Made by a program: the position numbers and the translations under genes. From Zygnema cylindricum (taxonomy: Eukaryota > Streptophyta > Zygnematophyceae > Zygnematales > Zygnemataceae), in the NCBI GenBank assembly GCA_037447655.1, contig JBBHKE010001207.1, forward strand, positions 91,942-155,941: a DNA stretch of 64,000 nucleotides, read 5' to 3'. The notes under the pieces are model-generated. The model saw nothing but the letters and a program-made list of their open reading frames with translations. It did no database searches and was not told where the DNA came from. This document shows, one piece after another, positions 5,946-63,804 of the stretch (positions within the stretch are counted from its first letter, which is position 1; the number at the start of each line of letters is the position of its first letter).

Positions 5946-6305
5946 TGTTGTAATTGTGTGACCTCCATTGGTCCACAGAATGTCCAGCTTATATAAAGCC
6001 TCTAGGATAATATTTACATTTTTGACTTTGGCAATGAATAAGTGCTACCCTTGCATGCAAAAACTCTAACTGACTACACCTCTGTGTAGCGTGGACTCCT
6101 TTGAGTACGCGGCAAAAAGAATCACTAAAATTTCTCATGTAAGCATTAAGTTATGGCCGGGCAAAGATGGCCTATAAATACAAAAGCACTCTAGGAGAGA
6201 GGCGGCTACCTTAATTTTTTCTAAGTCCTAAGCTCCCTCTTTAAACCTACTACTAGTGTACCCTAACCAATCAAATAACTATAAGGTACAAGAAGGTTTA
6301 GTGTA
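5946..6305 (-). mobile_element. Copia family A fragment (minus): gag start, leader, LTR inner part
   Basis: The ctccattgg start-codon block, the cctctagg block, the ggactcctttgag leader motif and the gagagaggcggctacc block match 10010-10400 in the same order. It abuts a + strand gag remnant on the left and a + strand LTR piece on the right, so both borders are rearrangement junctions. Confidence 0.65.
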
Positions 6306-6660
6306 GAAATTAATGATCCATTTAAAGTATTTTCTAGGTCTAAATAGAAATATAGAAAGAAGCCGAGGCAGTCTACCTCTAACTTCTCTCTCCAACTCTC
6401 AAACTTGTCGCTGTCACTGAGAAATTGGAGAGGGAGCTAGAGCCATGGCTACCTAGGCTAACCAGAAGTTTACGGGATTATATATTAGTTAGGGGTTTTA
6501 TTACTAAAAAGATATGGTGCCGGCTACAGGATTTGATCCTTGTACCTACCGGCCGGCAGGCAGCCGGTAGACGGTAGCCTTAACTGTTAAGTCTTCATCG
6601 AATGTTACGTAATATAGGGTATGATATTTATTTAAATGTTACTGAGTAGAAAAATTCATT
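6306..6660 (+). mobile_element. Copia family A fragment (plus): LTR outer part
   Basis: The tattttctaggtct block, the gaggcagtctacctctaac block and the agagccatggct block match the + strand LTR beginning at 4020. The following 6661-6790 is not assigned. Confidence 0.65.
6506..6600 (-). other. tRNA-related Pol III unit, antisense in LTR A (copy 3)
   Basis: On the minus strand GACTTAACAGTTAAGGC (A-box-like, 6577-6593) is followed by the B-box-like GATCAAATC (about 6530-6538). The sequence then ends TAGCCGGCACC and reaches a T5 run (AAAAA on + at 6506-6510). Confidence 0.55.
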
Positions 6661-6789
6661 TAACTATAACTGATTACGGGAGACATAGATCCATAATTGT
6701 AAAAGTACGGATAGCGGTACGAATAAGAAACCAATACCGCGCATTTATTTCTTTATAGAAAAGAATATCGCACATGTATTTATTACGGC

Positions 6790-9364: not shown

Positions 9365-9461
9365 TATGTTTTCGAACTAATCTGGTAATTTCATGATATG
9401 GGTGTTAACTTTCATTTTTCATTGTATCTGTCCACCCGGCACTTTCCATTTCCATATACAA

Positions 9462-10025
9462 TCAAGAAAGATCATTACAGTAATCTAACATTTTTCCTCC
9501 TTTGTAATTGTAACTTAATAGCTTTTGCTCAACCAACTGGAGCTCCTGAATAGTTCTAGTTTTATAAATCTTTACCAAACTCTCCCACAACTCCTCGGCC
9601 TTGTAAATGTGAAGATGAGGAGTGGCCAAACCTTGAGTGAGGTGCCTCAGAATGAAGTTCTTGGCAGCCATGCTTACATCCTCCCACATTTGAGTATTGT
9701 TTTCCATGGTTTTCACGATCACCGCTCCCGATACTATGACAATAGGAGTGAGGGGTGTCTCCTTCCCTTTCTCCTTTTCGGACACACTGCTGTCCCCATC
9801 ATCTATCTCCTCCGCTGAGGCAGCCGTTGTTGCAGAAAACCTTACTCCCCCAAATCCTGGTGGAGTTCCCGAAGGTGGACGTTTCACTTGTCCACTGACG
9901 ATACCCCAGTATGGTTTCTCACAAAAAGCTCCCATCATCATGGCTTCCCAATAGATGAACCCAGATCCATTGAAGGTGGGCACCCTAGAGGGTGGGCCCA
10001 TAACCTGCAATTCTGTGTCCTCCAT
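9462..10025 (-). pseudogene. Family A gag (N-terminal part)
   Basis: The 187-codon frame starts MEDTELQVMGPP and carries FNGSGFIYWEAMM, the copia gag (UBN2-type) entry motif. The later LRHLTQGLATPHL..KAEELWESLVK and IQELQLVEQKLL segments are also typical. It ends at a stop before the zinc-knuckle frame that starts at 9364, so gag and pol are separated by a short degenerate stretch (9365-9461). Confidence 0.85.
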
Positions 10026-10747
10026 TGGACTACAGATTAAAGGAAGCCTCTAGATAGTATTTAACTAACCCACTTTAAGCCAAAACCACTTCTGCCCAAG
10101 AAGGCAAACTGACAATTTGACTGCACCCCTATGCAGCCTGGACTCCCCTGAGTTTGTAGCAAAAAAAATCACTGAAAACGGCCAACCAGCCGATAAGTTA
10201 TGAGGCACCAAAAATGCCAATTTGTACAAACTCTCAAAGGGAGAGGTGACTACCTACCAAAAGTTTTTAAGTCCTGATTCCTTCTAATAACTTCTATCTA
10301 CTGAAGTACGGACCAATCAAATTACTGTACCGTGCCAAAAAATACTACTGCCGGTGTACCTTTTGTACGGCCTATGTACGACAAAGCTATTAAGTGGACG
10401 CGTGTCTGCTTTTTATTTGTCCGTACATTCCTCGGAATTCCTATGACCGAATGTCATCTCTCCACGTGGCTCGAGGTCATGCCACGTCACAAAACGCCAA
10501 GTTGACCACTCCGGGATTTCGGCGATGACGTGCGCCGTCGGATTCATAATGAGACGTAATCTTAACCGTTATAATTACTTGCGAGATATTTGTTTCGCTG
10601 TCAACCAAATGGGAGGTATTCATTCTGAAATGATGTCGTACTAAAACTGTATCTATGCACGTCGTATCTAATTTTAGTTAAATGGATTTCTTACTTCCTA
10701 AATGTATATATATCTATCATACTCTATAGCACTTAGCATTGGTCCTA

Positions 10748-14563: not shown

Positions 14564-15191
14564 TGTAGGATCTTAAGCAAAAGACATTCACTCAAAATAA
14601 ATTCATAAAACATAAAACATTACACAGCGGAAGCTCATAATAAACAACAGGAATATTCAGCCAAAAAAAATTATAAGTGTTCTTGGCCCAAGCCTCTTTA
14701 CATCATCTCTCTTCACTCTTCTTTCTCTTCTCTCTCCTCTTTAAATTATCTCTTACTCCAAGATTAGTCCTCTAAGATTTTATCAGGTAAGATAAAATAC
14801 TCTGCACATGTACACTGCTTCCTAAATACTCGCTACTCTGCACTAAAAGACAACAAGGTAAGACAAAAAGAACTTAGCTTAGCGACGAAGTCTGTCCCTA
14901 GCTGACTGTGCACACTGCAAGGACGTTAAAATTGCATGCGCTTTCTTCCTTCAAAACGACTTACTCCAAACGTTTACTTAAACACGTGTCGTTACATGAA
15001 AACACTTGCACGCAAAATGTGACACCTGCGCACGAAAACATAAAGTGACACGAAACGAAATAGTACATTTCGTTCGCGGATAATAAAAGTACCGCCGCGA
15101 AACGACGTCGATGACGTGATACTTCACGTCAAACAAATAAATGTTAGTATGTCGCTTCGCGAATATAATGCGAAACGACAATAACCCAACA
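14564..15191 (-). repeat. 3' LTR of family B element
   Basis: The left edge is TGTAGGATCTTAAG and the right edge cccaaca, next to the polypurine tract. The LTR matches the one at 19948-20597 over its whole length with scattered differences. Confidence 0.95.
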
Positions 15192-16763
15192 ACCCCCCTC
15201 TTATTCCCGGAATTGCCAAACTCTTCAAAATAATCCAAGCTTTGGTCGCCCCCTCTCAAATACATCATGCGCAGCTACTTTGGTTAGCAAATGAGCCGCC
15301 TCCTCTTTTGTCGGTACGTTCGAAAATACAATCTCGTTCGCTGAACCAAATCTCTTACAAAATGCCATTGGATCTTGATGTGTTTCGTCCTCTTGTGAAA
15401 CACTGGATTTTTCGCCAACGCCATCGAACTCATGCTTCTGAATAAATTGTCATACAACCATTAGGAATGCTCAACTCGCGTACCATCTCCTTAATCCAAA
15501 TCGAAGCCTTAGATGCATGACATGCTGCCATATACTCAGATTCTATGTAACTCAAAGCAACCGTAGGTTGAAGCGTAGACCTCCACAAGATCGCGACTCC
15601 TCCAAAAATAAATGCGTACTGTGACGTGGACTTACTTGAATCAAAGTCGCCGCCCCAATCCGCGTCACAATAACCAACACACTCAAGAGAATTTTTATCA
15701 AAAGTAAATAAAAGTTCAAAATCAATCGTACCAACTAAATATTGAAAGATACGTCGTACGACCTCCCAGTGTGCCTTTTTTGGCTCGTGACAATAACGGT
15801 TGACGATGGAAACCGCGGCCGTAATATCTGGATGAGTACCAACGCTAAGGTACATAAGTGAACCAACCACCTCTTGATATGGTACGTCGACAGAATCTTC
15901 TTCCTCAAATTTGCGAATGTGTAGATTTGCATCCAATGGCGTAGAAAGCGGTTTCGCGTTAGTCATACCAAATCTCTCCAAAATCTCTTTATAATATTGA
16001 GCTTGACTCAATTTAATTTTCCCCTCTTTGTCGCGTATCACTTCAATCCCCAAAATATATCGTACTTCTCCAAGATTTGTTTCTTTGACATGTAATGTAA
16101 GGTAATGTTTCAACTTATTAATGCGCTCTAACTTGTCGCATGCCATCAAGAAATCATCGACATAAACAGAAAAGATGATTTGGTCAACTTCGTCACCTTT
16201 CACGTAAACTCCAAAATCGGATGTAGTACGTACAAATCCGAATTTCAATAGTACTTGATGAAGTCTCATATACCACGTGCTCGGTGCCTGTTTCAAACCA
16301 TATAATGACTTTCGCACACGCCATACATTTCCTTCCTGCAAAGGAGACACGCCTTCCGGTACCTTCGTGTATACCTCTTCCTCTAACTCACCATTTAAAA
16401 ACGCAGTTTCCACATCTATTTTATGGACGTGCTTCTTCCCCATCGCTGCAGTGCAATAATAATCCGTAATGAGTCCAACTTCACCAAGGGAGCATAAGTC
16501 TCCATAAATTCAATTCCCTCACGTTGTTGGATGCCCTTACAACGAAGCCTCGCCTTGTACTTAATAATTTCACCCGAAGCTCCACTCTTCGTCTTGAAGA
16601 CACACTTTGCATCAATCGTCTTTCCCCCCCCCGGTAATTTCACCTCCTCAGAAGTTCGATTATCAACCACCGATTTAAATTCTTTCTCCCACGCCGGTTT
16701 CCACTTACTCTCCCAATCTGTCGACCTTCTTGCCTCGACATAAGATTGAGGGTCGTCGGTCAT
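15192..16763 (-). pseudogene. Family B reverse transcriptase-RNase H
   Basis: RT starts near 16763 with SYVEARRS..WESKWKPAWEKEF. It continues with IDVETAFLNGELEEEVY, SLYGLKQAPSTWY and the active site YVDDFLMAC (near 16160). RNase H follows with VGYCDADWGGD, ESEYMAACHASKASIW and a frameshifted HKRTKH segment near 15330. A frameshift separates 16416-16763 from 15430-16443. This is the reverse-transcription module of the element. Confidence 0.92.
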
Positions 16764-17183
16764 ATTTTCCGTAAGTAATTGCTACAAAAGAAACTCCGTC
16801 TCTTTAGCATCGGAAAGAAAATAATGCGATTCGATGCATTTTCCCCTTTTCGATCGTAAGTGAGTTTCTCCAGTTTCTTCCTCTTTGTACTCCGAGAGCT
16901 CATTCTAAGAACTTACTCTTCCTCCTTCTCCTCTTTCTCTTCCTTGGATTGAATTTCAATTTCCTTCTCACTCGATTTAGAACTCAATTTAGAGATTTGA
17001 GATTTCCGAATGTTCGAAGGCAAACGGGAATCCAAAGATCCGTTACTCTTTCTTTCAAATTCAATTTCAACAGATTTCCCCAATTTCTTTTTTTTGAGTT
17101 TTTACATTCGGTTCCTCATTGGATTTTGAATCCCCAATGTACGGAAAACTCTCAATTTCACTCTCCTCATAAAAATCCAAACT

Positions 17184-18544
17184 TTATTTAAATTTCCCAA
17201 CGGAATTCATGGCGGATTTGAGATCCTCCTGAAAATCCACATTGTGAGATTCCTCCACGGTGTGACGAGCCGGATCATACACTTGGTACAAATTCCCCTT
17301 CGCACTATAACTAACAAAAAATCCCGGCCAACACCTTGGAGCAAATTTCCCCTTCCTTTGATTGATTCCACATAAACCGTAGCATGACATCCCCAAATTC
17401 TCAAATGATGAACCGTGGGCTTTCTCCCACTCCATAACTCCTCCAGTGTTTTACTTCCGGAAACCGAAGTGAGTCTTCGGTTACAAATGTAACTTGGCGT
17501 AAAAATGGCGTCTCCCCACAAAAACATTTGTCGTCCGGAGCTATGAACCATCGCACGGACCATTTCTTGTAAGGTACAATTCTTCCTTTCTGCCACTCCA
17601 TTCGACTCCAGAGAATAAGGCGCCGTGAATTGATGCCTTATCCCCCACTCCTTACAATACCCCTCAAAAACAACAAACTCCCCTCCATTGTCCGAACGAA
17701 TGGACTTAAGCTTTTTATCAATTTGCCTCTCGGCCATTACATGCCATTCTTTAAATTTTTCAAATGTATCCGATTTCTTTTTCAATAAATACACCCATGA
17801 CTTTTGAGAGAAGTCATCAACAATCACCAAAGTATACTTATTACCTCCAATTGTCTCGGGTTTAATATGTCCACAAAGATCGATGTGGACAACCTCCAAA
17901 GGACTTTGAGCTCGATGCTTGATGTCTTTATTCGGATGGGATTTCCGAATTTGACGTCCTTTGCTACATCCTCCGCATCCGTTCACCTTCTCACCGGATG
18001 CGAGGTCCAAACCCCTCACCGAAGAATGACGAATCATCTTCTTCAAACTTACCGCGGATGTGTGACACATCCAATGATGCCATAAGGTAAGATCACCTTT
18101 CAACTCCGAAATTTGATGTGAAATTCTCTCAGTGGGAACTTTAGATTTCGGCCTCCTCCATAAGAGCCGACTATGATCCGCATCCGTTACAACTCCTTCT
18201 CCAATTACATCCCCTTTCTCATTCCAAATCTCGATAGATTGATCACCTCTCGCAAGTAAGCTTCCACCACTCTTTTGGATTTGTGGAACCCTTAACAAAT
18301 TGACGGAACCGTCCGGAATATAATGTGTATTTTGAAGACGATACTCTGTCGATTTCTCTTTCCCATCATTATCCCATGAAAGGAGATCAAGCCGAACCGT
18401 GCCAACTGTACCAACCGAAATAACATGGCCGCTTGCAACCGTAGTAAACTTTGGAACCGTAAGTTCCCTCATGTCATCAAACAAGGTGGTATCTGTGCAA
18501 ACATGGTGAGATGCCCCCGTATCAATAATCCACTCTTTCTCCAA
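17184..18544 (-). pseudogene. Family B protease and integrase
   Basis: The protease motif WIIDTGASHHVC lies at the start. The integrase zinc domain (LWHHWMCH...CGGCSKGRQ), catalytic segments VVHIDLCGH, SIRSDNGGEF and ESNGVAERK, and the FFVSYSAKGNLYQVYDP C-terminal motif follow. A frameshift occurs near 17350. The integrase catalytic acidic residues appear intact. Confidence 0.92.
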
Positions 18545-18558
18545 ATTTCCTCCACTAC

Positions 18559-19905
18559 TTACCGAGTCAAGGGTAAGGTTAAGAACCGGAAACTCATCAC
18601 CAGCTCATTACCATAGTCAAAGTAATTTGCATTACCATAACCACGACCAACACCGCGGATTCCTGCTCGGCCGTCACCTCGGCCACCTCTATCAATTCCT
18701 CTACCTCCTCTTCCACTTCCGAAATCTCCACTCTTCACATAACATTGAGGGCTCCTATGCCCCCACTTACCGCAAAAATGACATTGCTTATCCTTATCCG
18801 GACAAAATGAAGACAAATGTCTAAGCCGGTTACATCGGTAACATGTCACATTGGAAAGATCCGAAGGGACCTTCGGTGGACGACCTTGCTCCTTCTTGTT
18901 GCCTCGGCCACCACCACCGCCTCTTGGGCCACCTCCTCTACCACCTCCTCTACCACCGGCACAGTTAAGATCCGGGGTTTCGGGACTAGTAGAGTTGAGA
19001 ACTCCTCCTCCACTTGAAGAAGCCGATTGAGTTCCCTCCAACATTTTGATAAAATTGACGGTGAATCCGAAGGTGTTATTTGCCTTTGCTCGTAAATTAG
19101 CTTAAAGATGAGAAAGCTTCTCTGGTAAAGCATTAAGAAAAACGCTTAACTTATCCGCATCCAAGATAACTCGGCCATTGTTGATTAATTGCTTGAGTAT
19201 AATATTGAAACGCTTCACGACATCATCCATCAATTCATTTGACTTGATTTTAAAATTCATAAAGTCCGTATAAACACATTGACCCTTGTTCTCAAGGCCT
19301 TTCTCATATTGATCCTCAAGTGCTTGCCAACACTCATGGGCCGTGCCGTGAGCGAGGCAATGATCAAGCACGGAAGAAGTGCAATTCTTCATCAAACCGG
19401 TCGTTGCTGCAATATCCTTCAACCTCCATTGAGCACGTGCCTTACTCTCGAGTGGCATTTTTTCTTCTCCATTGACAATCCACCAAAGCTTCTTGAGAAT
19501 AAGTTGGCCTGAAATAAACTTCTTCCAAACGGCATAATTGGAGCCATTAAAGGCCACAAATTTCCCCGACATATTATAATTTTCTTCGTTTTCCAATCCT
19601 TCGCTAAAATCGGACTCTTCTTCTTCTATCTTTGACTTTCCCTTCCTAATCCTCTATTTTCTCTCACTCTTATTAGCTCTTCTAATGAATGGATCGGTAG
19701 CCAGAAAGGAAGTGTTTTCTTTGGCCTCACTCGGTTGAGTTTGAAAACGGGAATCTACATATCTCATAAGTGTGTCAAACATTTCCTCAAATTTTCTCTC
19801 TGTATTTCGGGTCTCCTCAAATTGAGAACCCAAAAAACTGAACTCTCTTGCTCTCTCCGAAGTCAACAAGGGGGAAGGAGTATTTTTATTCTTCTTCCTC
19901 CCCAT
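18559..19905 (-). pseudogene. Family B gag
   Basis: Gag is split into three frames: 19905-19654 (MGRKKNKNT...), 19596-19102 (FVAFNGSNYAVWKKF..., copia gag core with WQALEDQYE) and 19044-18559. The last has a Gly/Arg-rich linker and two CCHC knuckles (CYRCNRLRHLSSFC and CHFCGKWGHRSPQC). The zinc knuckles bind element RNA. Confidence 0.9.
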
Positions 19906-19947
19906 GCGCTCTCTCTCTATCTCCGGAGCACTAGCTCCAATAACAAT

Positions 19948-20597
19948 TGTAGGATCTTAAGCAAAAGACATTCACTCAAAATAAATTCATAAAACATAAA
20001 ACATTACACAGCGGAAGCTCATAATAAACAACAGGAATATTCAGCCAAAAAAAATTATAAGTGTTCTTCGCCGAAGCCTCTTTACATCATCTCTCTTCTC
20101 TCTTCTCTCTCTTCTCTCTCCTCTTTAAATAATCTCTTACTCCAAGATTAATCCTCTAATATTTAATCATATAAGATACAATACTCTGCACATGTACATT
20201 GCTGCCTAAATACTCGTTACTCTGCACTAAGAGACAACAAGGTAAGACAAGCAGAACTTAGCGTAGCGACGAAGTCTGTCTATAGTTGACTATGCACACT
20301 GCAAGGACGTTTCCACAAAGAAAGTAGCACACGCTTTCTTCCTTCGAAACGACTAACTCCAAACGTTGACTTAAACACGTGTCGTCACACGAAAACACCT
20401 GCACGCAAAATGTGACACCTGCACACGAAAATCATAAAGTGACGCGAAACGAAATAGTACATTTTGTTCGCGGATAACAAAAGTACCGCCGCGAAACGAC
20501 GTCGTACATTTTGTATGATGACGTGATACACACGTCAAACAAATAAATGTTAGTATGTCGCTTCACGAATATACCGCGAAACGAGAATAACCCAACA
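19948..20597 (-). repeat. 5' LTR of family B element with adjoining PBS-like site
   Basis: The LTR ends (minus sense) in gatcctaca. The adjoining sequence in this copy is degenerate, but the paralogous copy near 43725 reads TTGGTATCTGAGC, matching the initiator tRNA-Met primer site. Confidence 0.92.
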
Positions 20598-20602
20598 AAT
20601 GG

Positions 20603-35203: not shown

Positions 35204-36791
35204 ATAAGTTCTCGAATTTGAGTTACATTAGGTGCGCGTTTACAATAAGTCAACATTTGCCGAATGAACATGTTATCTTAGAGCTTCCTCTTTATTATTA
35301 ATTTGAATATAGACCTTTTTACACGACTCCTCAAATTTGGCGTGCCTTTGCTTCATTTCTTGTTTCTTGCAATGGCTTTGGCTTTAAGTCTCGTAGCAAT
35401 TGAAGGTTTTACTTCCACACCTCCTTTTCGATCAAAAACTTAAACTACAGAAAGCACACACATGTTATTGTTAGATATTTTTACAAAATGAAATGTTTGC
35501 TTCTTGGCAAAACCTCGAGCAAAACGGGATGTTTTTGTAATTGAAATGCCTCGCACTTTGGACAAAGTGAGTAACCCCATAATATTAAGTTATTTTCTAG
35601 AGAGGAGACTGAAGGTGCGTTGGATGAACAAATTCAAGAGCATTATTCAACTACTTTATCTATTCGAAGGCATTTGCTACTTGTGGAATCATCAGAGTTT
35701 CTTTTTGATCGATGTACATCCTTTGTTGTCAGTGGAACATCTAGATCTTGAATTAAAAAACCACTATTTTTTTTTATTTTTTTATTTAGGATCGGTTGGG
35801 CTATAATGTTGCCAACGGTATTCGACATTTTGTGAAATAAAATGTGGAAAATTCGTACGAATATTTGTTTCCTTCCCTTAGTTGCGGACATGTGAATATT
35901 AGCCAAATGAAACAAATCAACATAAATAAAATTGCTAACATAAATGAAAGGAATAAAAAAAAGTGTGTAAGGTCTTTCAACACATTCTTGAATCAAAAAA
36001 AATGAAAGGAATATAAACAAGTGTGCAAGATCATTCCATCGGTTAATCACATCGTTGTACAAAGAAGTGTAAATACATTGCAAAATATACACAATATAAT
36101 CCAGATTTAAAATATAATTCCATTATTTCAAATGACTTTGTCCGTACATTTAAAAATTACACAACGAAATTCTTGGTATAACGTTTAAGAAGAAAAAAAT
36201 TGCAACACTAAAAAAAAATACAACTTTAAGAATTTTCTACCAATCCATTAACCTACCTAGAAATATTGTTGTATTTATTGCCAAGAACCTGACGAACATT
36301 TGAAAGCGAAAAGAAAATAAAAATACAGAGTTCCAAATTTCGGAATGATTATCTTTAGTCATTTCAAAACTAGAGGAAATTGAGAGATATTATTGACAAA
36401 CGAATGATAAAAAAGGGTTGGAATCTGTAGATAAAAAAACCCTATATCGAAAATAGAACAAAACTAATAATAAACACACTTATGAATTTTTTACGATTCT
36501 AACAACTTCCAGATTTTGGGTTTTCATTAACTTCCCCATAAATCCTAGTTGGAATTTTATTCTCCTTTAACCTTCGGTACCGATGTCTATGAAAAAAAAC
36601 CAGAAAAATCAAAATGTAATCTGGAATGTCCTTTTCCATGCAAATCAAACAACAACATAAACACATCAACAAAAAGGAAGAAAACAGAAAAGTAAACTCT
36701 TTGGTGTTAAAATTTTAAGATGGTGCCTTTGATATACTTAGCAAGATCAATCTAAAAGGAAAAGTGAAAGAGGGAGATTTGTTGACATCAC
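35204..36791. other. 3' flank of gene-family copy G1, no coding support
   Basis: This region aligns with 53530-55050, 49240-50838 and 57080-58850 in the same orientation, so it belongs to the repeated gene unit. A conserved + strand frame starting KPRAK occurs in two copies (35504 and 53783), but equal conservation in all frames gives no coding argument. Confidence 0.6.
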
Positions 36792-37766
36792 CTTTATAAT
36801 CGCTGATGTAAACATTTTAAAATCTACCCAAACATCTTCAATGATGGGTGGCGCCATCAGAAAAAAAAAATAACAAGTGGTAAAACATTAACATCCGAGA
36901 AAAGGAAAGATAGAGAGGGACAGAGAGAGAGAGGGAGAGAAGGAGAAATGGAGATAGTAAGATAGAGAAAAAAAGATTGGGCAAGAAGGAGAGATGGATA
37001 GCGGCACAGAGGAAGAAAAAGGGAGGGAGAAAGGATGAAAGGGAAAGAGTGGGAAAGACTGGGTAGTAAAAAGAGCTTACTTGGAGGTGCCGAGAGAGTG
37101 GGATTGGAAAAAGGGGAGGGAACAAAAATATAAGTTGGAGTGGGAGTGGGAGTGGGAGTGGTAGTGGGAGTGGGAGTGGGAGTGGGAGTCGGAGGCGGTT
37201 TGGGAGTGTCGGAAGTATGACGAGGACGAACAAATTGAGGATGATTGGAATGAGATGGAATAGTAATAAGTAGCCCTACACACATGAAAATCACATGAAC
37301 GAAGAAGAAATAGAAAAAAAAAGCAAAAGTGCGCCGGTAAACCTACGCTTTAACACAGAAACTAACAAACTAGAAAAAAAAACGTTTCATTTAAGTTATA
37401 AGGTTAAATCCGAACCTTCGATTTTTGGGATGTGAGGGATTTCACGTTTCCCAAATTTTCCTCAAATTTACAAGGATCGAGTTTCCCAATACTCCAAACT
37501 TTCGACCTTCATTAGATGAAAAACAATTTGATCTTGTTACTTATATAGCAGAATGTTAAGAAATGGCAAAACAACATCATAAAAAAATAGATAAACAAAA
37601 AAAAAACATAGATATGAACAAAATAAATGTCTGCATTACTAAGATCCACAATTTTTCCGCTTCTTTTTCTTCAACTTTCACCAAAACATGAAGGAATAAT
37701 CGAAAGAAAGAACATAAACAATACTAAAATTGAAGGCCATAAACATATTGAGTTTTGTGTGGCCAT
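36792..37766 (-). pseudogene. Gene-family copy G1: secreted Thr/Pro-rich protein, decayed
   Basis: Exon 1 (37766-37682) encodes MATQNSICLWPSIL...PSCFG, a signal peptide. Exon 2 (37275-37081) follows tgtgtag in matching phase and encodes LLITIPSHS, then [11 protein letters not shown] repeats and SAPP, ending at GTAAGC. The exon 3 equivalent (about 36854-36792, [20 protein letters not shown]) has lost the acceptor seen in copy G4 and is followed by a one-base shift. The protein is of unknown function. Copy G4 is the better model. Confidence 0.6.
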
Positions 37767-38385
37767 CTTTTTTGTTGTTGATAAGAGTCAAATTTTAAGA
37801 ATCTGATTCCTAGAGTTAGGTATCGCAATTGGATGAAAATGATATTTTCTGACAAGTAAGAGGGAGTTGGGTCCTTTAGTGTGATAGAAATGAATTTAAA
37901 TGTGGGAATATGAATATGAATTCAAATATTACGGAAAGTTTGAAGTTTGCGAGAACTGAGTAAATCAAAGCAAACTCGGTGAAATCTGCGAATATGTATA
38001 TATATGAGACTCCAATAGTAGATGATATTAGGATGAAACTACGTGATACTGTAATTAAGCAAATCACAATGCCTTTCTCATTTTTACCCACGACCAGCTT
38101 TTCTTTTAATATACTTAGAATACTCAAGCTTAAGGTCTTCTTTTTGTCTGACTCTCGGGGAAGTCTACTATGTCGCATAACACTCCTATATCGGACGCTC
38201 CATGCATTTTCAGATCAGCGGTTGTATCAATTTGGGAGATTTGGCGCGCTTCGAGCTGTCGACGATAAAATCTAACTGAACCGTCAGCAGAAGTTACGGA
38301 CGACCACGCGCTGGGGTACGGCTGTTTCTACTTATCCGGTTTTGTGTACAGCATGACAAATCTCGTATTATCGTTTTATGATTTA
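37767..38385 (-). promoter_or_regulatory. Upstream region of gene-family copy G1
   Basis: It aligns with the upstream region of copy G4 (56130-56710) including the gactctcggggaagtctacta block. The TATA element of G4 is here degraded to a tatattaaaag-like sequence (minus strand). A MITE is inserted at 38386. Confidence 0.5.
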
Positions 38386-39079
38386 GGGTGGACTTCCATT
38401 AGCGAAAAATTGGGGTTTTTAACCGACGGCCGTACCGTTTCCTACAAGTTCGTACAGATTTTTTTTTTTCAACGAAAACAACATTACAAAAAATTGTCCA
38501 AGGTTGTAGGCGTAAATTAAGACCGTCGGATTCAATTGCATTTTTTATCCGTGACGCCACGTCACCAACCCTACAGTTTTCTAAGATCGTGCAGAGTGAG
38601 GACAGTTCTCGAATACAGAACGTGTAAAAATAGGCCGCGTGGAAAAGGTCAAAATAATCCAGGATGAGCGCGCGGGTATGTGCGTACATGTCGCAAGGGC
38701 CATGTGCCTTCCGCCAGGGTGGCAGTGAATCCGCCGAAATTATCCCGTCACGCTCCCACCATCAAAGTTTGCCGCCGCCTTTTTGTCGTTGCGTTTTGAA
38801 ATTTTGGGTAGTACATTTAATGCCCTCTGTACGAGTCATTAATTACCTCCGCTGGTACATGTATTATCTCCGCTGGTACAGATATTACCTTCGTCCGTAC
38901 AAATATTGCGTTCTGACATTGCATTCGAAGATTCTTTCAAGATTTTAGGCATCAAATATTAGCCTACGTGCTACCAACCAGAATGAGCCACGCAGGTTTA
39001 CAGACACGACCTAATAGAAGGCATGCCCTTCAGTAAAATCTTCCGTACAATTACCTGGACGCCTAATGGAAGTCCACCC
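38386..39079. mobile_element. Harbinger-like MITE, 694 bp, TSD TTA
   Basis: Terminal inverted repeats GGGTGGACTTCCATTAG are perfect over 17 bp at both ends. The element is flanked by TTA on each side (38383-38385 and 39080-39082). The two duplicated copies of the locus (about 48871 and 56706) have the uninterrupted site gatttagcg. Three-bp TWA target duplications are typical of PIF/Harbinger elements. No transposase frame is present. Confidence 0.9.
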
Positions 39080-48115: not shown

Positions 48116-49668
48116 ATACTAAACTGATGGAAAACACTCACTAAAATACCTTCTTAACACCGACAACTCACGACCACTAACTCCACTAACTGAAAGCAGA
48201 CGAGGGCGCCGAAGTCCACATGCGGACGTGCGCCTAAAAAGCATTCAAGCGCCAAAACAAAGTGACACGCACTAAAATGCACTAGACACGTATAGCGCAC
48301 TAAATAACACAATCACCAGTGACACGACCAAACTGAACCATCATGCAGAAATTATCTATGTACCGGCTGGTACTAAACCGCCGTACATTGAATGAACCAA
48401 AAGTACTCCGATGCAAATCGCGAAACCATACTCAAGATCGAATCGCACCACGCGAACCAAAACACATGTGCTAAAAGAAGATTCCAATAGTAGATGAAAT
48501 AGGATAGAATGAAGTCAGAGACACTGAAATGAAGTAAAACACAATGCCTTTTCTATATTTTTTAACCACGACCAGCTTTTTCTATTTATATATACTACTT
48601 GGAATACTCAGGCTGAAGTTTAGGTCTTCTTTTTGTCTGACTCTCGGGGAAGTCTACTATGCCGCATAGCACTCTTAGATCGGACGCTCCATGCATTTTC
48701 AGATCAGCGGTTGCATCGATTTGGGAGATTTGGCGCGCTTTGAACTGTCAGCGAAATAGATCTAACCGAACGGCCGGCAGAAGTGACGGACGTCCACGCG
48801 CCTGGGTACGGCTGTTTCGACTTATCCGGTTTTGTGTACGGCATGGCAAATCTCGTATTGTCATTTTGTGATTTAGCGGCGAGCGAGTGCATCGCACCGT
48901 ACCATAATGCATAATTCGAAACAAAGGTACACTAAGGTACGAGGTAAAGTGCAATTAATGTGCAAAAATTGTTGGAAACGCTATGTTGTACCACCTTATA
49001 ATACTCATACTCCGAAACAAACTAACAATAAATAGCTTTTCCAATTGTTTTCACGCAGAAACCTAAAGTTTAGAATATCGGCATGAAAAACACGTTAATA
49101 GACTCAAAATTACTAATAATAATTATTCGGTTATAGAAATTATCATGCCCGAAATCGAGACACAGGCTCTCCTTTTTCCAAGTCTCCTTCCGTGAGATTT
49201 TCCTTCGTTGTCTTTTGTCTTGTAATGGCATATTTTTTAATATGATAAGCTTCACCAAATGAACATGTTCTCTTAGAGATTCCTCTGTACTTTTAACTTA
49301 AACAGATAACTTTTTACAGGACTCCTCAAATTTGGCGTGCCTTTGCTTCATTTCTCGTTTCTTGCAATATCTTAGGCTTTTAGTCTCGCAACTCTTGTAG
49401 CTTCTACTTCCACACCTCCTTCTCAGTCAGAAACCCTAATACTTATCAGAATAAATATCTTAGAAAAGTTATAGAAAGCACACACATGCAATCTCTAAAT
49501 GTTTTTAGAAATTGAAATGTTTGCTTCTTGGATAACGTAGTCAACAGTAATCGATATTTTCTGAAAGAAAAGGGGGGAAAGTTGGATACAGATGAACAAC
49601 TTTCGGTTGCCTTCCCTTAGTTGCGGAGATGTGATTATTAGCCATGTGAAGCAAATTAGCAAGTCACT

Positions 49669-50242
49669 TGTTAGATTTCCATGAAATTTGGGTATCGGCA
49701 TGTCCCATACTAGGGAAAAGTGAGCCAGCCAGGGCTCGAACCTGGGACCTCTGACTTGAGCTATCAGCGCACTAACCACTATGCCACCAGCTTTGTGCCA
49801 CCAGCTCACCAGCTTTGTGCCACCAACTCGATGTAGAGCCTGGCAGGTCTGTAACTATTTAATTAGGCGGCTTCGAGTGTGACGAATATTCTATCCCGTA
49901 TTGAACCGGCATTCACGTGCCAATCCAACACCCCCCCTCACAGGAAGGCGAGTCCCACCATCCCTAATCCCGCTGGCTATGATACCATGTTAGATTTCCG
50001 TGAAATCCGGGATTCGGCATGTCCCATACTAGGGAAAAGTGAGTCGGCTAGGGCTTGAATCTGGGACCTCTGACTTGAGCTGTCAGGGCACTAACCACTG
50101 TGCCACCAGCCCACTGTGCCACCAGCCCGATGTAGAGCCCGATGTAGAGCCTGCGGGTCCGTACCTATTTAATTAGGCGGCTTCGAGTGTGACGAATCAC
50201 ATTCTACCCCGTATTGAACCGGCATTCACGTGCCATCCAACA
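49669..50242 (-). mobile_element. TRIM element T1 with tRNA-like LTRs (TSD TCACT)
   Basis: The element is 574 bp, with LTRs 49669-49930 (262 bp) and 49988-50242 (255 bp) and an interior of only 57 bp. On the minus strand the interior starts with the PBS TGGTATCATAGC next to the 5' LTR and ends with the polypurine tract GTGAGGGGGGG next to the 3' LTR. TSD TCACT lies at 49664-49668 and 50243-50247. Paralogous loci (near 35930 and 54257) show the uninterrupted site. Each LTR contains a tRNA-like cloverleaf. Confidence 0.95.
49721..49793 (-). other. tRNA-like cloverleaf with Pol III boxes in TRIM T1 LTR
   Basis: Minus-strand reading gives an A box TGGCATAGTGGTTAGTGC and a B box GGTTCGAGCCC. The D arm (GCAT/GTGC), the anticodon arm (CTGAT/GTCAG around AGCTCAA) and the T arm (CCAGG/CCTGG around TTCGAGC) all pair. 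The acceptor stem pairs 6 of 7. Nominal anticodon is CTC, but position 33 is G, not T. A T4 run (AAAA on + at 49716-49719) follows the 3' end. The other LTR carries a slightly decayed copy at 50040-50112. Confidence 0.85.
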
Positions 50243-50838
50243 TCACTAACATAAATGAAAGGAGTAGAAACAAGTGTGTAAGGTCTTTCCACATATCGTT
50301 GAATAAAAAAGATGAAAGGAATCTAAACAAATTCGCAGGGTTGTACCATCAGTTAATCACACTCGTTGAATAAAAAAGTTTTGTAAATACAATGCAAAAT
50401 ATACACATTATTATCCAAACTTGCAATGTAGTTACATTGTTTAAAAGTACTTTGTACCTACATTTAAAAAATACACAACGAAGATCTTAGTGTATTGTTT
50501 AAGATCGAAAAAAGCGCTACACTAAAAGAACATACAACTTTAATAATCTCCTACCAATCCATTAGCCTACCTAAAAATGTTGTTGTGTATATTGCCAAGA
50601 ACATACCGAACGTGTAAAAGCGAAAAGAAAATAAAGTTAAAGAGGTCCAAAGTACGGAATGATTATCTTTAGTCATTTCAAAAATGTGAGGAAATTGAAA
50701 GATAATATTGACAAACTGATGATAAAAAAGGGTTGGAATCTGTTGAGAAAAACCCTACATCGGAGAAATCAACCCTATATCGAAAAAAGAACAGAAATAA
50801 TAATAAAAATACATATGACTGTTCTGCACTTCTAATAA

Positions 50839-53480: not shown

Positions 53481-54970
53481 CCATATAGGTTTTTGAATTT
53501 AAGTTGCTCTCGATGCGCTCTTACGATAAGATAGGCTTCACCGAATGATCATGTTCTCTTAGAGCTTCCTCTATAGTATTAACTTGAACATTGACTTTTT
53601 TACACGACTCCTCAAATTTGACATGCCTTTGCTACATATCTGGTTTCTTGCTTGTAGCTTGTACTTCCACACCTAATTCTCAATCAAAAACACCAGTAAT
53701 CATCAGAGCAAGTTTCCTCGGAAAATATAGAAAGCACACACATGCAATAGTAAATATTTATAGAAGATGAAATGTTTGCTTCTTGTCAAAACCTCGGGCA
53801 AAATGGGATTTTTTTGTTATTGAAATACGTCGCACTTTGGACAAAGTGAGTAACTCCAGAGTCTTGAGTTATTCTTTGGAGAGGAGATTAAGTTATGTTG
53901 GTTTCCATCACATAAACTCGACCAACAAAACAAGGAGCATTCTTCAACCACTTTACCTACTCGAATGCATTGGCTGTTTGTGGAACCATGTGGAGTTCCT
54001 TTTCGATCAATGTACGTTATTTGCTGTAAGTGGAACATTTGGATCTTGACTTTCTAAAAACCAAACTGTTCATTTTTTATTTTTACACAGGATCAGTTGA
54101 AAATAACGTTGTCAACGGTATCCAGAATTTTCTGAAAAATATTGGGGGAAATTTGGATACGTGAAAATAATCAGCAACGTTCCTTCAACAACTTTCGGTT
54201 TCCTTCTCCTAGTTGCGGAACATGTAAAGCAAATCAACATAAATAAAATCACTAACATAAATGAAAGGAATAAAAAAAAAAGTGGAATGTTTTTCCACAC
54301 AAGACACATGTGCAACGCCATTCCATCAGTTAATCACATTGTTGAATAAAAAATACATTGAAAAATATACACAATATAATCCAAATTTGCAATACAATGC
54401 CGTTGTTTAAAAGGATTTTTTACGTACATTTAAAAAACACAACGAAATTTTTGTTATAATGTTTAACAACGAAAATTGCTACACTAACAGATCATACAAC
54501 TTTTAAGTATTTTCTATCAATCCATTAACCTACCTAAAAGTATTGTTGTATTTATTACCAATAACCTATTGAACTAGTGAAAACGAAAAGAAAAGAAATG
54601 TACAGAGGTCCAAAGTACGGAATGGTTATCTTTATGATTGATGCGTCATTTCAAATATTAAGGGAAATTGAAAGATAACATAGAGACGAATGATGAAAAA
54701 GGGTGCTGAAATCTGTGGAGGAAAAAACACATATCGAAAAATAAACAAAAAAGTTAAAATACTAACTAATAACTTCCAGATTATGGATTTCCATTAACTT
54801 CCGAAAAATCCTAGATGGAATTTTATTCTCCTTTCAGTTTTGGTAACAATTTCTATGAGAAAAATAGAAAATCCATAACGTACTTTGGAAATGTTCTTTT
54901 CCCTGCAAATGAAAAAAGAAATAAACACATCACCAAAATGGAAGAAAACAGAAAATTAAACTCTTTGGTG
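53481..54970. other. 3' flank of gene-family copy G4
   Basis: It aligns with 35250-36780, 49240-50838 and 57080-58850. No frame stands out from the overall similarity between copies. Target-site motifs such as aaatcactaacataaatg (54255) show the empty state of the TRIM insertion site. Confidence 0.6.
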
Positions 54971-56103
54971 TTATAATTTTAAGTTGGAGCTGTTGATATA
55001 CTTCACAAGATCAATCCAAAAGGAAACTGAAAGGGGGAGATTTGTTGACATCACCTTTATAATCGCTGAGGTAAACATTTTTAAATCTACCCAAACATCT
55101 TCAATGATGGGAGCCGCTATATTCCCCTGCAGAATAAAATAAAAAAAACAGCAAATGGTAAATACTATCCGAGAAAAGTAGAGGTAGAGAGGGAGAGAGG
55201 GAGAGAGCGAGAGAGAAAGGGAGAGAGAGAGGGAGAAAAGTAGAGAGAGAGGGAGATAAGGAGAGAGCGAGACAGAGAAAAAGGAGAGTGAGTAGCAGAG
55301 AGGGCTTACATGGAGGAGCCGAGGTAGGTGGATTGGTAAAAGGAAAGGGAACACGAACAGGAGTGGGTGTAGTAGGGGCGGGAGTAGGAGTAGGAGTGGG
55401 AGTGGGAGTAGGAGTGGGAGTGGGAGTGGGAGTGGGAGTGGGAGGGGGAGTGGGAGTGGGAGAGGGAGTGGGAGTGGGAGTGGGAGTGGGAGTGGGAGTG
55501 GGAGTGGGAGTGGGAGGCGGTTTGGGAGTGTGGGAAGGATGAGGACGAAGAGTGGAGTGAGGATTTTTGGAATGAGACGGAATAGTGATAATTGGCCCTA
55601 TACACATTAAAACCACAAGAACTAAGAGGTAAAAGAAGAAAAAAAATTTAATGGTGCACCTCTAAACCTACGTTGTAACACCGAAACTAACAAATAGTAA
55701 AAGAAAACGTTTCATTTAAGTTATGAGGTTGAAACCGAACCTTCGATTTTCGGGATGTGAGGGATTTCACATTTCCCAAATTTTCCTCGAAATTTACACG
55801 GATCGAATTTTCCCAATACTCCAAACTTTCGACCTTCAATAGACGAAAAACATTTTAGTCTTGTTAGTCGTACAACAAAATATTAAGAAATGGCAAAAAA
55901 AAATTGTCAAAGAATAGTCATACAATACAGAAAATAAAAAGAGTGTAGATATGAACAACATTGATGTCTTCATTACCAAGATCGACATTTTTTTCGCTTC
56001 CTTTTCTGGAGATTTCACCAAAACAAGAAGGAAAAATCGAAAGGAGCATGAAAGATAATAAAAGTGAAGGCCATAAAAATTTTGAGGAGTTTTGTCTGGC
56101 CAT
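54971..56103 (-). CDS. Gene-family copy G4: putative secreted Thr/Pro-rich protein
   Basis: Three exons are proposed: 56103-56019, 55597-55310 and 55116-54971 (519 nt, 172 codons plus stop). Exon 1 encodes a signal peptide ([18 protein letters not shown]...PSCFG). Exon 2 joins in phase 1 and encodes PIITIPSHS, then about 20 Thr-Pro repeats, then [12 protein letters not shown]. Exon 3 encodes [20 protein letters not shown], a hydrophobic stretch and DLVKYINSS. The exon 1-2 junction is also preserved in paralogue G1. A stronger acceptor (ttctgcag, 55129) would end the protein early with YSGSHH. The composition suggests a hydroxyproline-rich wall or arabinogalactan-like protein. Function is unknown. 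Confidence 0.6.
55370..55520. repeat. GGAGTG microsatellite within G4 exon 2
   Basis: About 150 bp of ggagtg repeats (minus strand CACTCC) encode the Thr-Pro tract. The equivalent tract in G1 (37138-37190) is much shorter, so the number of repeats is changing rapidly. Confidence 0.9.
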
Positions 56104-56414
56104 CTTTTTCTTTTTGTCAAGTTTCAATTTTTGAAAATCAGATTTCCTGGATTAGATATCTCAATCGGATGAAACTGATATTGTCTAACTAAATTGAAGT
56201 TAAGTCCTTAAGTGTGATAGAAATGAATTCAAATATGCAAATATTACGGAAAATTTGAAGTTTGTGGGAATTAAGTAAATCAGGTCAAAGCCGGTGAAAT
56301 CTGCTAAAAGAAGATTCCAATAGTAGATGAAATAGGATAGAATGAAGTCAGAGACACTGAAATGAAGTAAAACACAATGCCTTTTCTATATTTTTTAACC
56401 ACGACCAGCTTTTT

Positions 56415-56427
56415 CTATTTATATATA
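56415..56427 (-). promoter_or_regulatory. TATA box upstream of G4
   Basis: The minus strand reads TATATATAAATAG about 310 bp upstream of the proposed start codon. It is conserved in the duplicate (about 48592-48604) and degraded in G1. A transcription start near 56390 would follow. Confidence 0.5.
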
Positions 56428-57502
56428 CTACTTGGAATACTCAGGCTGAAGTTTAGGTCTTCTTTTTGTCTGACTCTCGGGGAAGTCTACTATGCCGCAT
56501 AGCACTCTTAGATCGGACGCTCCATGCATTTTCAGATCAGCGGTTGCATCGATTTGGGAGATTTGGCGCGCTTTGAACTGTCAGCGAAATAGATCTAACC
56601 GAACGGCCGGCAGAAGTGACGGACGTCCACGCGCCTGGGTACGGCTGTTTCGACTTATCCGGTTTTGTGTACGGCATGGCAAATCTCGTATTGTCATTTT
56701 GTGATTTAGCGTCGAGCGAGTCGATCGCACCGTACCATAATGCATAATTCGAAACAAAGGTACACTAAGGTACGAGGTAAAGTGCAATTAATGTGCAAAA
56801 AATTGTTGGAAACGCTATGTTGTACCACCTTATAATACTCATACTCCGAAACAAACTAACAATAAATAGCTTTTCCAATTGTTTTCACGCAGAAACTTAA
56901 AGTTTAGAATATCGGCATGAAAAACACGTTAATAGACTCAAAATTACTAATAATAATTATTCGGTTATAGAAATTATCATGCCCGAAATTGAGACACAGG
57001 CTCTCCTTTTTCCAAGTCTCCTTCCGTGAGATTTTCCTTCGTTGTCTTTTGTCTTGTAATAGCATATTTTTTAATATGATAAGCTTCACCAAATGAACAT
57101 GTTCTCTTAGAGATTCCTCTGTACTTTTAACTTAAACAGATAACTTTTTACAGGACTCCTCAAATTTGGCGTGCCTTTGCTTCATTTCTCGTTTCTTGCA
57201 ATAGCTTAGGCTTTTAGTCTCGCAACTCTTGTAGCTTCTACTTCCACACCTCCTTCTCAGTCAGAAACCCTAATACTTATCACAATAAATATATTTGAAA
57301 AGTTATAGAAAGCACACACATGCAATCTCTAAATGTTTTTAGAAATTGAAATGTTTGCTTCTTGGATAACGTTGTCAACGGTATTCGATATTTTCTGAAA
57401 GAAAAGGGAGGGAATTTGGATACGGATAAATAACTTTCGGTTTCCTTCCCTTAGTTGTGGACATGTGAATATTAGCCATGTGAAGCAAATTAGCAAGTCA
57501 AT

Positions 57503-58055
57503 TGTTAGATTTCCGTGAAATTTGGGTATCGGCATGTCCCATACTAGGGAAAAGTGAGCCAGCCGGGGCTCGAACCTGGGACCTCTCACTTGAGCTGTCA
57601 GCGCACTAACCACTATGCCACCAGCTTTGTGCAACCAACCACTATGCCACCAGCTTTGTGCCACCAGCTCGATGTAGAGCCTGGCGGGTCCGTACCTATT
57701 TAATTAGGCGGCTTCGAGTGTGACGAACATTCTACCCCGTATTGAACCGGCATTCACGTGCCAATCCAACACCCCCCCTCACAGGAAGGCCAGTCACACC
57801 ATCCCCAATCCCGCTGGCTATGATACCATGTTAGATTTCCGTGAAATCCGGGATTCGGCATGTCCCATACTAGGGAAAAGTGAGCCGACTAGGGCTTGAA
57901 TCTGGGACCTCTGACTTGAGCTGTCAGGGCACTAACCACTGTGCCACCAGCCCGATGTAGAGCCTGCGGGTCCGTACCTATTTAATTAGGCGGCTTCGAG
58001 TGTGACGAATCACATTCTACCCCGTATTGAATCGGCATTCACGTGCCAATCCAAC
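57503..58055 (-). mobile_element. TRIM element T2 (duplicate of T1 insertion)
   Basis: The structure equals T1: two LTRs of roughly 250 bp, a short interior with PBS TGGTATCATAGC and a GTGAGGGGGGG polypurine tract on the minus strand. Flanks are tcaat (57498-57502) and tcact (58056-58060), one base apart. The site is the same as T1, so a single insertion was duplicated with the segment. Confidence 0.95.
57555..57627 (-). other. tRNA-like cloverleaf in TRIM T2 LTR
   Basis: A box TGGCATAGTGGTTAGTGC, B box GGTTCGAGCCC and the D and T arms are intact. In the anticodon stem CTGAC now faces GTGAG, which leaves one mismatch. The T4 run follows. The second LTR has a decayed copy at 57881-57953. Confidence 0.8.
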
Positions 58056-58886
58056 ATCACTAACATAAATGAAAGGAGTAGAAACAAGTGTGTAAGGTCT
58101 TTCCACATATCGTTGAATAAAAAAGATGAAAGGAATCTAAACAAATGCGCAGGGTCGTGCCATCAGTTAATCACACTCGTTGAATAAAAAAATTTTGTAA
58201 ATACAATGCAAAATATACACATTATAATCCAAACTTGCAATGTAGTTACATTGTTTAAAAGTACTTTGTACCTACATTTAAAAAATACACAACGAAGATC
58301 TTAGTGTATTGTTTAAGATGGAAAAATGCGCTACAATAAAAGAAAATACAACTTTAATAATCTCCTACCAATCCATTAGCCTACCTAAAAATGTTGTTGT
58401 ATTTATTGCCAAGAACATACTGAACGTGTAAAAGCGAAAAGAAAATAAAGTTAAAGAGGTCCAAAGTACGGAATGATTATCTTTAGTCATTTCAAAAATG
58501 TGAGGAAATTGAAAGATAATATTGACAAATTGATGATAAAAAAGGGTTGGAATCTGTTGAGAAAAAACCCTACATCGGAGAAATCAACCCTATATCGAAA
58601 AAAGAACAGATATAATAATAAAAATACATATGACTGTTCTACACTTCTAATAACGTCCAGATTATTGGTTTTATTAAGTTTCTAAAAAACCGTAGTTGGA
58701 ATTGTATTCTCTTTTTCGTTCCGGTACCGATGTCTATGAGAGAAAAAGAAAAACACAAATGTGTTATAGAAATGTTTTTTTTCCCTGCCAATCAAACAAA
58801 AAAATAAACGCTTCAACAAAAAGGAAGAAAACGGAAAATGAATATCTTTAGTGTAAAATTTTTAAGATGGAGCCTTTGATATACCT
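58056..58886 (-). pseudogene. Gene-family copy G5, 3' part, cut by copia E
   Basis: The flank aligns with G1 and G4. The last coding bases (YIKGS.LK frame, about 58886-58862) are present and the copia family E element begins at 58887 inside this exon. The 5' exons, if kept, lie beyond the window. Confidence 0.55.
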
Positions 58887-62265: not shown

Positions 62266-63804
62266 CCTCTAACGTTAACGGAAGCTTTTTCGAGTAATGA
62301 AAGGGAACACTGGGTGGAAGCAGTCAATGAAGAAATGAAGTCCATCATAGAGGCCCAAACATGGGATCTGGTGGAACTTCCTCTTGGAAGAAAGGCTATT
62401 GGAAGTAAATGGGTGTTTAAATTAAAATTGAACCCAGATAATACCATAGACAGGTATAAGGCTCGCTTGGTTGCTAAGGGATATAATTAAAAGGAGAGGA
62501 TAGACTATGAAAAAACATTTTCACCGGTTGTAAGGTTTCTATAAATCTGCATCTTACTTACATTAGCTGTCATAAAGGATCTTGACATCCACCAAATGGA
62601 TGTCAAAACTGCATTTTTGCATGGTGATTTACATGAGGTCATTTATATGAAGCAGCCAGAGGGGTATGAGGAAGCAGGAAAAGAAAATCTTGTGTGCAAA
62701 CTTTTAAAATATTTGTATGGCCTAAAACAGGCCCCTAGGCAATGGAACCGAAAGTTAGATGAGTTCTTGACAGGATTTGGATTTACTAGAATTAGTTCAG
62801 ATCATTCAATATATGTGATGTGTGGTGATAATCCTGATGAGGTGATATTCATTGCTGTGTATGTTGATGATTTCCTGCTAATTAGTAGGAACAAAGAAGG
62901 AATTGCTAGAGTAAAACACGCTCTTAATTCAAAATTTGAAATGAAGGATTTGGGTGACGCTAAATACATTCTTGGCATACAGGTTGAAAGAGATAGAGAA
63001 AAGAAAACCATTAGGCTAACTCAAAAAGAAGCGATAGGAAACATGTTGGAAAAATTTGGTTTGCCTGATGCCAAAGGTTGTGCAACTCCTATGGAGTATA
63101 AGCAAAAACTTGAAGGAATGGAGCATGGGTTTAGAGTCATAATAGATGAGGAACTCAGTGTAGAAGAGCAAAAATTTATGTCACAAGTACCCTACGGACA
63201 AGTAGTAGGAAGTCTGATTTACTTCATGAATTGTACTAGGTCCGATATAGCTGCAGCTGTTGGTGTGTTGAGCAAAAGTCTGCAAAATCCACGAAAGAGA
63301 GACTGGGAAGCAACAAAAAGGGACTTAAGATATCATGTTGGGACTAAGAATCTTTGGCTTACTTTGGGAGGGGACAAGGTTGGCATTAATACTTGGAGTG
63401 ATGCTAGCAATGGTGATGTGCCTAGTAGGAAGTCTACAACTGGGTATGTCATTCAGATTGGAAGTGGAACTTGTAGTTGGAGTAGTAAACTTCAAAAGGT
63501 CACGGCACAATCGACTATGGAAGCCGAATACATGGCTGCGAGTGCAGCCTTGAAAGAGCTGCTATGGATTAAGGCATTTCTTCAAGAATTGGGTTTTACA
63601 CAACACGGGACACAAATAATGTGGTGCGACAATCAAGCAGCCATTTCTGTGGCTACAAACCCAAGTCACCATTTTAAGAGTAAACATATGGACATTCGGC
63701 TACATTTGGTACGAGAGAAAGTATTTGCAAAAGTGGTCAAACTTTGTTATTTGCCTGATGAGAAAATGGTTCCGGATGTTGACAAAAGCCCTTCCTGCTC
63801 CTAA
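62266..63804 (+). pseudogene. Family E reverse transcriptase-RNase H
   Basis: The N-terminal part has two stops (about 62488 and 62543) within KWVFKLKLNPDNTIDRYKA and PVVRF segments. From 62596 the frame is continuous: MDVKTAFLHGDLHEVIYMKQPEG, YGLKQAPRQWN, active site YVDDFLLIS, then RNase H with TWSDASNGDVPSRKSTTGY, MEAEYMAASAALKELLWIKAFL and SKHMDIRLHLVREKV. It stops at 63804. Confidence 0.93.

Follow-up and report, generated by a model that had tools for sequence, protein, structure and literature searches.

The window analysed here, a 64,000-nucleotide stretch of the Zygnema cylindricum contig JBBHKE010001207.1, holds on its minus strand a retrotransposon of 574 bp (49669-50242), both ends of which proved exact on rechecking. 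Read along the sense strand, it runs from a target-site duplication (TSD) through a 5′ LTR (50242-49988), an interior (49987-49931) and a 3′ LTR (49930-49669) to the second TSD, which like the first reads TCACT (49664-49668 on the left, 50243-50247 on the right). The 5′ LTR (49988-50242) measures 255 bp and the 3′ LTR (49669-49930) 262 bp, the latter containing additional tandem repeats where its tRNA-like part begins. Between them, the 57-bp interior (49931-49987) has no coding capacity. It begins with TGGTATCATAGCCAG immediately after the 5′ LTR, and its primer-binding site (PBS; 49973-49987) is complementary at 14 of 15 positions to the 3′-end, CCA included, of the host initiator-Met tRNA. 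The gene for this tRNA was found at two genome loci, each 100% identical over 72 bases to a plant initiator-Met tRNA sequence; the PBS expected from its 3′-end plus CCA is TGGTATCAGAGCCAG, which the window copy and another member of the family (L034) each match at 14 of 15 positions. The polypurine tract (PPT) GTGAGGGGGGG lies directly before the 3′ LTR (49931-49941). Two empty paralogous sites read through the insertion point without the element, one at 35913-35940 and one at 54240-54262, where the target TCACT occurs once. The original prediction was of a miniature LTR retrotransposon (TRIM) with LTRs of about 260 bp, a 57-bp interior, PBS, PPT, 5-bp TSD and empty paralogous sites, and all of these were seen.

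The tRNA-like part and the copies in the window

Each LTR carries, at an identical position and in the sense of the element (minus strand), a tRNA-like sequence. The cloverleaf of the 3′ LTR (49721-49793) has a box A (49776-49786) and a box B (49732-49742) free of mismatches, with 6/7 pairs in the acceptor stem, 4/4 in the D arm, 5/5 in the anticodon arm and 5/5 in the T arm, and is followed by a run of four T residues (T4; 49716-49719), a candidate terminator for RNA polymerase III (Pol III). Its counterpart in the 5′ LTR (50040-50112), also followed by a T4 (50035-50038), is decayed: box A (50095-50105) has no mismatch and is repeated at 50111-50121, the acceptor, D and anticodon stems pair at 6/7, 4/4 and 5/5, the T arm pairs only at 3/5, and box B (50051-50061), which reads GATTCAAGCCC, carries two mismatches. 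A cloverleaf with A and B boxes, paired arms and T4 had been predicted for both LTRs; this holds for the 3′ LTR and for both T4 runs, but not for the T arm and box B of the 5′ copy.

Gene finders agree with this picture. ARAGORN reports tRNA-Glu(CTC) at 49720-49793, 57554-57627 and 57880-57953, and a search of the whole window with the Rfam tRNA model gives 42.8 bits (E 9.7e-6) for the 3′ LTR sequence at 49721-49793 and 31.9 bits for the 3′ LTR of a second copy described below. For the 5′ LTR of the window element, neither ARAGORN nor Rfam at E ≤ 10 reports a tRNA. Among 3000 dinucleotide shuffles of the window 3′ LTR, not one yields a tRNA with ARAGORN. Rfam finds no 5S rRNA in the window; tRNA is found instead. 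The anticodon loop reads AGCTCAA, with G rather than U at position 33. Since translation tRNAs carry U33, the tRNA-like part is unlikely to be a working translation tRNA.

The second copy of the element (57503-58056, minus strand; tRNA-like parts at 57555-57627 and 57881-57953) was carried to its place by segmental duplication. Its flanks are shared with those of the first (48466-50838 vs 56299-58653, 95.9% identity), which rules it out as an independent insertion, and a third copy with the same flanks lies beyond the window at C906:158266-158843 (L002). The loci L001, L002 and L003 represent one insertion in a triplicated segment: judged by its flanks, the window copy is a single insertion, later tripled by segmental duplication. 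It is probably silent, because box B of its 5′ LTR is damaged. Between the two LTRs of the window element, 9-10 of 72 bases differ in the tRNA-like part and 4-5 of 52 in U5. The 5′ LTR of the first copy and the 3′ LTR of the second show 0/99 differences in U3 and 10/72 in the tRNA-like part, a result for which dating of the window copy by LTR divergence was dropped; conversion or a mixed origin is a possible source of the pattern.

Other features were recorded along the way. A unit repeated locally at 74 to 96% identity occupies 35204-38392, 48466-50838, 53485-56715 and 56299-58653, and in one such unit a short frame on the minus strand (about 55921-56123) starts like a signal peptide. Two Copia elements lie on the minus strand at 2731-10543 (LTR pair 92.0% identical) and 14564-20598 (90.0%); in the latter, the PPT is G-rich and the LTR begins with TGTTGGG, features that resemble the TRIM ends. 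A Copia protein encoded at 62596-63804 is 36-48% identical to its relatives among the 120 listed, the named ones being mostly from flowering plants. The light-harvesting family has at least 88 matches in the genome (150 of 160 candidates scored), with clusters in assembly G000 at C519, C2590, C610 and C1077, many of them in alternating orientation; these matches mark the host as a photosynthetic eukaryote. For the Lhcb at L092, the PDB chains 8htu_U and 7xqp_a (460 bits), which we take to be from moss complexes, score above 8c29_G and 1vcr_A (434 and 432 bits), while the score of the top-ranked row, 9vfj_2, is the sum of two domains of a longer chain. The dynein heavy chain has a single match in the assembly (3 candidates), a long intronless frame at L091 1405-3309, which is possibly contamination or a remnant. 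This lone match does not argue for a host with motile sperm and fits poorly with a moss, provided that the search was not blind to others; taken together, the proteins suggest a streptophyte, perhaps moss-like.

The family in the genome

The assembly searched comprises 352.8 Mb in 2689 contigs. Searching it with the 262-bp LTR, a check proposed together with the original prediction, uncovered a dispersed multicopy family with TSDs: at least 77 matches came from the 40 scored of 806 first-look candidates, and the TSD is complete (5/5) at 12 of 24 places in this first set. A second query, made of U5 and the interior, contained no letters of the tRNA-like part, so that the presence of that part was not built into the sample. 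It gave at least 40 matches, all from the 40 candidates scored out of 728 at first look, and 30 loci (L031 to L060) were fetched from these; the two sets overlap in several loci and their counts are kept separate. The least diverged elements measure 229+57+229 bp, or 515 bp. In the second sample, 27 of the 30 loci contain two or more full LTRs, 56 in all, full meaning a near full-length alignment to the 229-bp LTR, a definition that by itself misses LTRs devoid of the tRNA-like part. Among these 27 full elements, 12 have a TSD of 5/5 and 15 one of at least 4/5, a duplication of that quality not being found in the other 12. LTR pairs are 0.0% divergent in L032, L033 and L042, each with a TSD of 5/5, and up to 18.8% divergent elsewhere. 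The copies with identical LTRs are therefore probably recent, and the family that includes them has apparently been active not long ago.

Arrays of alternating LTR and interior also occur, with three LTRs in a row at L057 1037-1838 and L058 1326-2124, and with further, partly deleted LTR and interior pieces at L018. Such three-LTR tandem arrays are described in the literature for many plant TRIMs (PMC4717578) and for Cassandra (PMC7215508). The portion of the tRNA-like sequence that holds box A is tandemly duplicated over 18 to 47 bp in a few elements, each time differently and in one LTR per element only: in the 3′ LTR of L044/L010 and L015, in the 5′ LTR of L050/L027 and L052/L026, and in the window element at 49793-49830. 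An earlier impression from the long-LTR query, that these repeats were a general trait of the family, was abandoned, as they affect 3 of the 56 LTRs in the U5 + interior sample. Exact LTR patterns gave 0 matches in viral_contigs (one pattern) and 0 in genome_contigs (another pattern). About 400 bp from a family element, L039 739-866 matches U2 snRNA with 118.8 bits, its last third poorly.

The tRNA-like part is present in all 56 full LTRs of the 27 elements recovered with the query free of its letters, and scanning the 30 loci L031 to L060 again by separate segments shows U3, tRNA-like part and U5 in succession 56 times, in 29 of these loci. Box A agrees with TRGYNNANNGG without mismatch in 53/56 LTRs and box B with GGTTCGANNCC in 39/56; T4 follows the tRNA-like part in 53/56, and ARAGORN calls a tRNA in 46/56. 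Of the 24 LTRs that belong to the 12 least diverged elements, 22 pass the Rfam tRNA cut-off and 14 score 54.6 bits, and in L032 the acceptor stem pairs at 7/7. Exceptions were sought by segment scan over L001 to L060. In an old element at L055, one LTR (908-1094, plus strand) passes at position 104 from U3 into U5 (35/50 bases identical) and is short of exactly the tRNA-like part, which the other LTR (1095-1270) retains; the L018 array adds two pieces with deletions as further exceptions, and the tRNA-like part of the L006 5′ LTR is badly decayed (58/81 bases). The tRNA-less LTR of L055 is either a neat deletion or the trace of a tRNA-less relative. LTR copies without the tRNA-like part had been named beforehand as the observation that would count against the prediction: all the full LTRs have it, while one LTR of L055 and the L018 pieces do not. 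On these alignments the tRNA-like part is an integral and ancestral component of the LTR family, yet one that can be lost.

Could the cloverleaf instead be a late arrival in the window copy alone, a SINE or a tRNA gene, and so no feature of the LTR? tRNA heads are typical of SINEs, which lends this idea some appeal. Kojima's account of related elements (PMC10886601) also suggests a SINE insertion, there as ancestral origin. Against it, the two LTRs of the copy hold the tRNA-like part at one and the same place, as do all 56 full LTRs from 27 elements, and neither a tail nor a TSD was seen around it in the one alignment inspected. Such a late insertion is refuted by the family-wide presence of the module and its probability is practically nil, which leaves an ancestral insertion as the sole form in which the idea is possible. 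No cellular parent tRNA more than 70% identical was found among 18 distinct host tRNA sequences (30 loci; 63 of 24620 first-look candidates scored). The best match among these 18 is Trp-CCA, at no more than 70%, and the initiator-Met tRNA agrees at 47/73 positions; the host isotypes compared with each other have a median identity of 57% and a maximum of 93%.

Constraint and the probable promoter

The paired LTRs, which should match when an insertion is new, allow inherited and later changes to be told apart, a variant found in both LTRs having been inherited from the source, and one private to a single LTR being a mutation after insertion. For this comparison 53 of the 56 LTRs were aligned, the 3 with long duplications having been dropped beforehand, and 24 elements had both LTRs. 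U3 shows 53 inherited variants against 131 private ones, the tRNA-like part 6 against 110 and U5 22 against 49, the query behind this sample having contained U5 and thus favouring similar U5. Set against its flanks, the tRNA-like part differs with a Fisher value of 2.5e-8 when cells are counted, although related elements share variants and the cells are not independent; counted by columns, the effect is weaker (4/73 vs 24/156, p 0.032). The private rate is 0.063 in the tRNA-like part, 0.052 in U3 and 0.040 in U5. As it is not lower in the tRNA-like part than in the flanks, the deficit of inherited variants does not come from a low mutation rate. Bootstrapping over the 24 elements places the excess divergence of the tRNA-like part below that of the flanks by 0.025 (95% CI 0.017 to 0.032), and over the 12 least diverged elements by 0.020 (CI 0.012 to 0.029). 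By these measures, the tRNA-like part varies much less between sources than its flanks do, although, once inserted, it gathers mutations just as quickly. The constraint is equally strong at the 51 positions outside the boxes (between 0.067 vs within 0.064) and in the boxes themselves. For this reason it marks the module as important without singling it out as a promoter.

A TATA-like motif bears on the same question. In one subfamily, to which L034 belongs, TAAATA stands at LTR position 74 and the tRNA-like part at 106, and at this distance of 32 bp the motif could serve RNA polymerase II (Pol II) or help Pol III. Of the 27 elements, 18 lack the motif in both LTRs, 8 have it in both and 1 has it in a single LTR; it occurs in the window copies and in none of the three elements with identical LTRs (L032, L033, L042). 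Together, the loss of the TATA-like box and the constraint on the tRNA-like part favour Pol III over TATA-driven Pol II, and transcription of the element by Pol III, as inferred from sequence, is likely. By means of the internal A and B boxes, Pol III would begin with the tRNA-like module of the 5′ LTR or slightly ahead of it, pass the short T4 of that LTR, cross the PBS and the PPT, and stop when it meets the T4 in the 3′ LTR. This would make the tRNA-like part an R region, present at either end of the RNA and so permitting first-strand transfer, with reverse transcriptase and integrase presumably supplied by an autonomous LTR element. No such autonomous partner came to light in the searches, which were aimed at the TRIM family itself. 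The T4 of the 5′ LTR is expected to end some or many transcripts early, a caveat for this scheme. Taken as a whole, a TRIM family of the Helenus type (see below), with a tRNA-like module in its LTRs, probable Pol III transcription and a presumed autonomous helper, is the explanation that we consider best and hold with good confidence.

Two other readings must be set beside it. The element might be an ordinary TRIM, transcribed by Pol II from a promoter in U3, with the tRNA-like part a passenger derived from a SINE or a tRNA fragment. LTR retrotransposons usually have Pol II promoters, according to PMC10853983, and the TAAATA that one subfamily has in U3, 32 bp ahead of the tRNA-like part, fits this scenario, as does the old L055 LTR that lacks exactly that part, which would suit a tRNA-less ancestor. 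It sits poorly, however, with the loss of TAAATA from 18/27 elements, including the three with identical LTRs, and with inherited variation that is lowest of the whole LTR in the tRNA-like part, where a passenger should vary like its flanks. We regard it as unlikely. What is conserved might alternatively be a folded RNA rather than a promoter, the cloverleaf in R acting in packaging, in processing by RNase P or Z, or in strand transfer. This would account for constraint that extends over the 51 non-box positions, and for the acceptor stem of L032, paired at 7/7, a pairing that Pol III is not known to need. Single-strand folding of the L032 form alone, on the other hand, gives a rod rather than a cloverleaf at minimum energy, and position 33 is not U, which makes a translation tRNA unlikely. 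As a replacement for the promoter, the folded RNA seems to us quite improbable. Transcription by Pol III from the tRNA-like module thus stays our preferred reading, to which a bolder one may be tentatively added: the transposing lineage may have dropped the TATA-like box of U3 and come to depend wholly on the module, with selection acting on the entire cloverleaf, its 7/7 acceptor stem and non-box positions included, beyond the Pol III boxes. This is conceivable, at rather less than even chances; if true, an R region folded as a tRNA would itself take part in the retrotransposition cycle, besides being a promoter.

Comparison with known systems

The original prediction knew of no published TRIM with a tRNA in its LTRs, and in this it was wrong: Kojima described such elements in 2024 as Helenus, from fungi, animals and one plant, and proposed the class TRIMp3 for them (PMC10886601). 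A meeting report of 2026 repeats the finding (PMC12859917). By title or abstract start, no further description of TRIMs with tRNA-like LTRs turned up in the literature searched, which includes few subscription journals. In the text of Kojima (PMC10886601), the sole plant Helenus is that of Selaginella moellendorffii, with LTRs of 120 bp and an interior of 85 bp, and the use of Pol III by Helenus is inferred from motif conservation only.

Placed by its structure, the Zygnema family is a well-supported TRIM of the Helenus type. Like Helenus, it has a pair of LTRs within less than 1000 bp (the window copy spans 574 bp, the least diverged elements 515 bp), each LTR with a tRNA-like sequence and its A and B boxes. 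Also shared are a PBS and a PPT between the LTRs, the 5-bp TSD of plant and fungal Helenus, solo LTRs, tandem arrays and a tRNA-like part apparently unfit for translation. The family differs in the fifth base of box A, which is A here where most Helenus have TRGCY, and from the Selaginella element in its dimensions, the LTR being 229 bp rather than 120 bp and the interior 57 bp rather than 85 bp; an element size like that of the Zygnema family is not given for Selaginella Helenus in the text of Kojima 2024 (PMC10886601). What our alignments add is the deficit of inherited variation in the tRNA-like part together with the loss of the TATA-like box in 18/27 elements. With copies whose LTRs are identical, a TATA-less subfamily and the control offered by inherited and private variants, the idea of a tRNA-type Pol III promoter driving an LTR retrotransposon becomes directly testable. 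There is also a warning for annotation, as LTR pieces can account for many of the tRNA-Glu(CTC) genes predicted in a genome of this kind.

Other short elements resemble the family in part. Canonical plant TRIMs have its size, its structure and its tandem arrays (Gao 2016, PMC4717578), but the main text of that survey, in which the word tRNA is absent, makes no mention of a tRNA sequence in the LTRs; it reports no TRIMs in Physcomitrella. The tRNA-headed SINEs (SINE2) likewise pair a tRNA-like module of Pol III type with a short, non-coding mobile element. They have no LTRs, are target-primed and leave variable TSDs, whereas the LTR pairs, PBS, PPT and 5-bp TSDs of the Zygnema elements point to retrotransposition of the LTR type. 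Cassandra, with which the original prediction drew its parallel, is as described (PMC10853983, PMC7215508) also a TRIM with a small-RNA gene of Pol III type in its LTR, a Met PBS and tandem arrays. The gene in the Cassandra LTR is that of 5S rRNA, which Rfam did not match here, and in the Zygnema family its place is taken by a tRNA-like cloverleaf.
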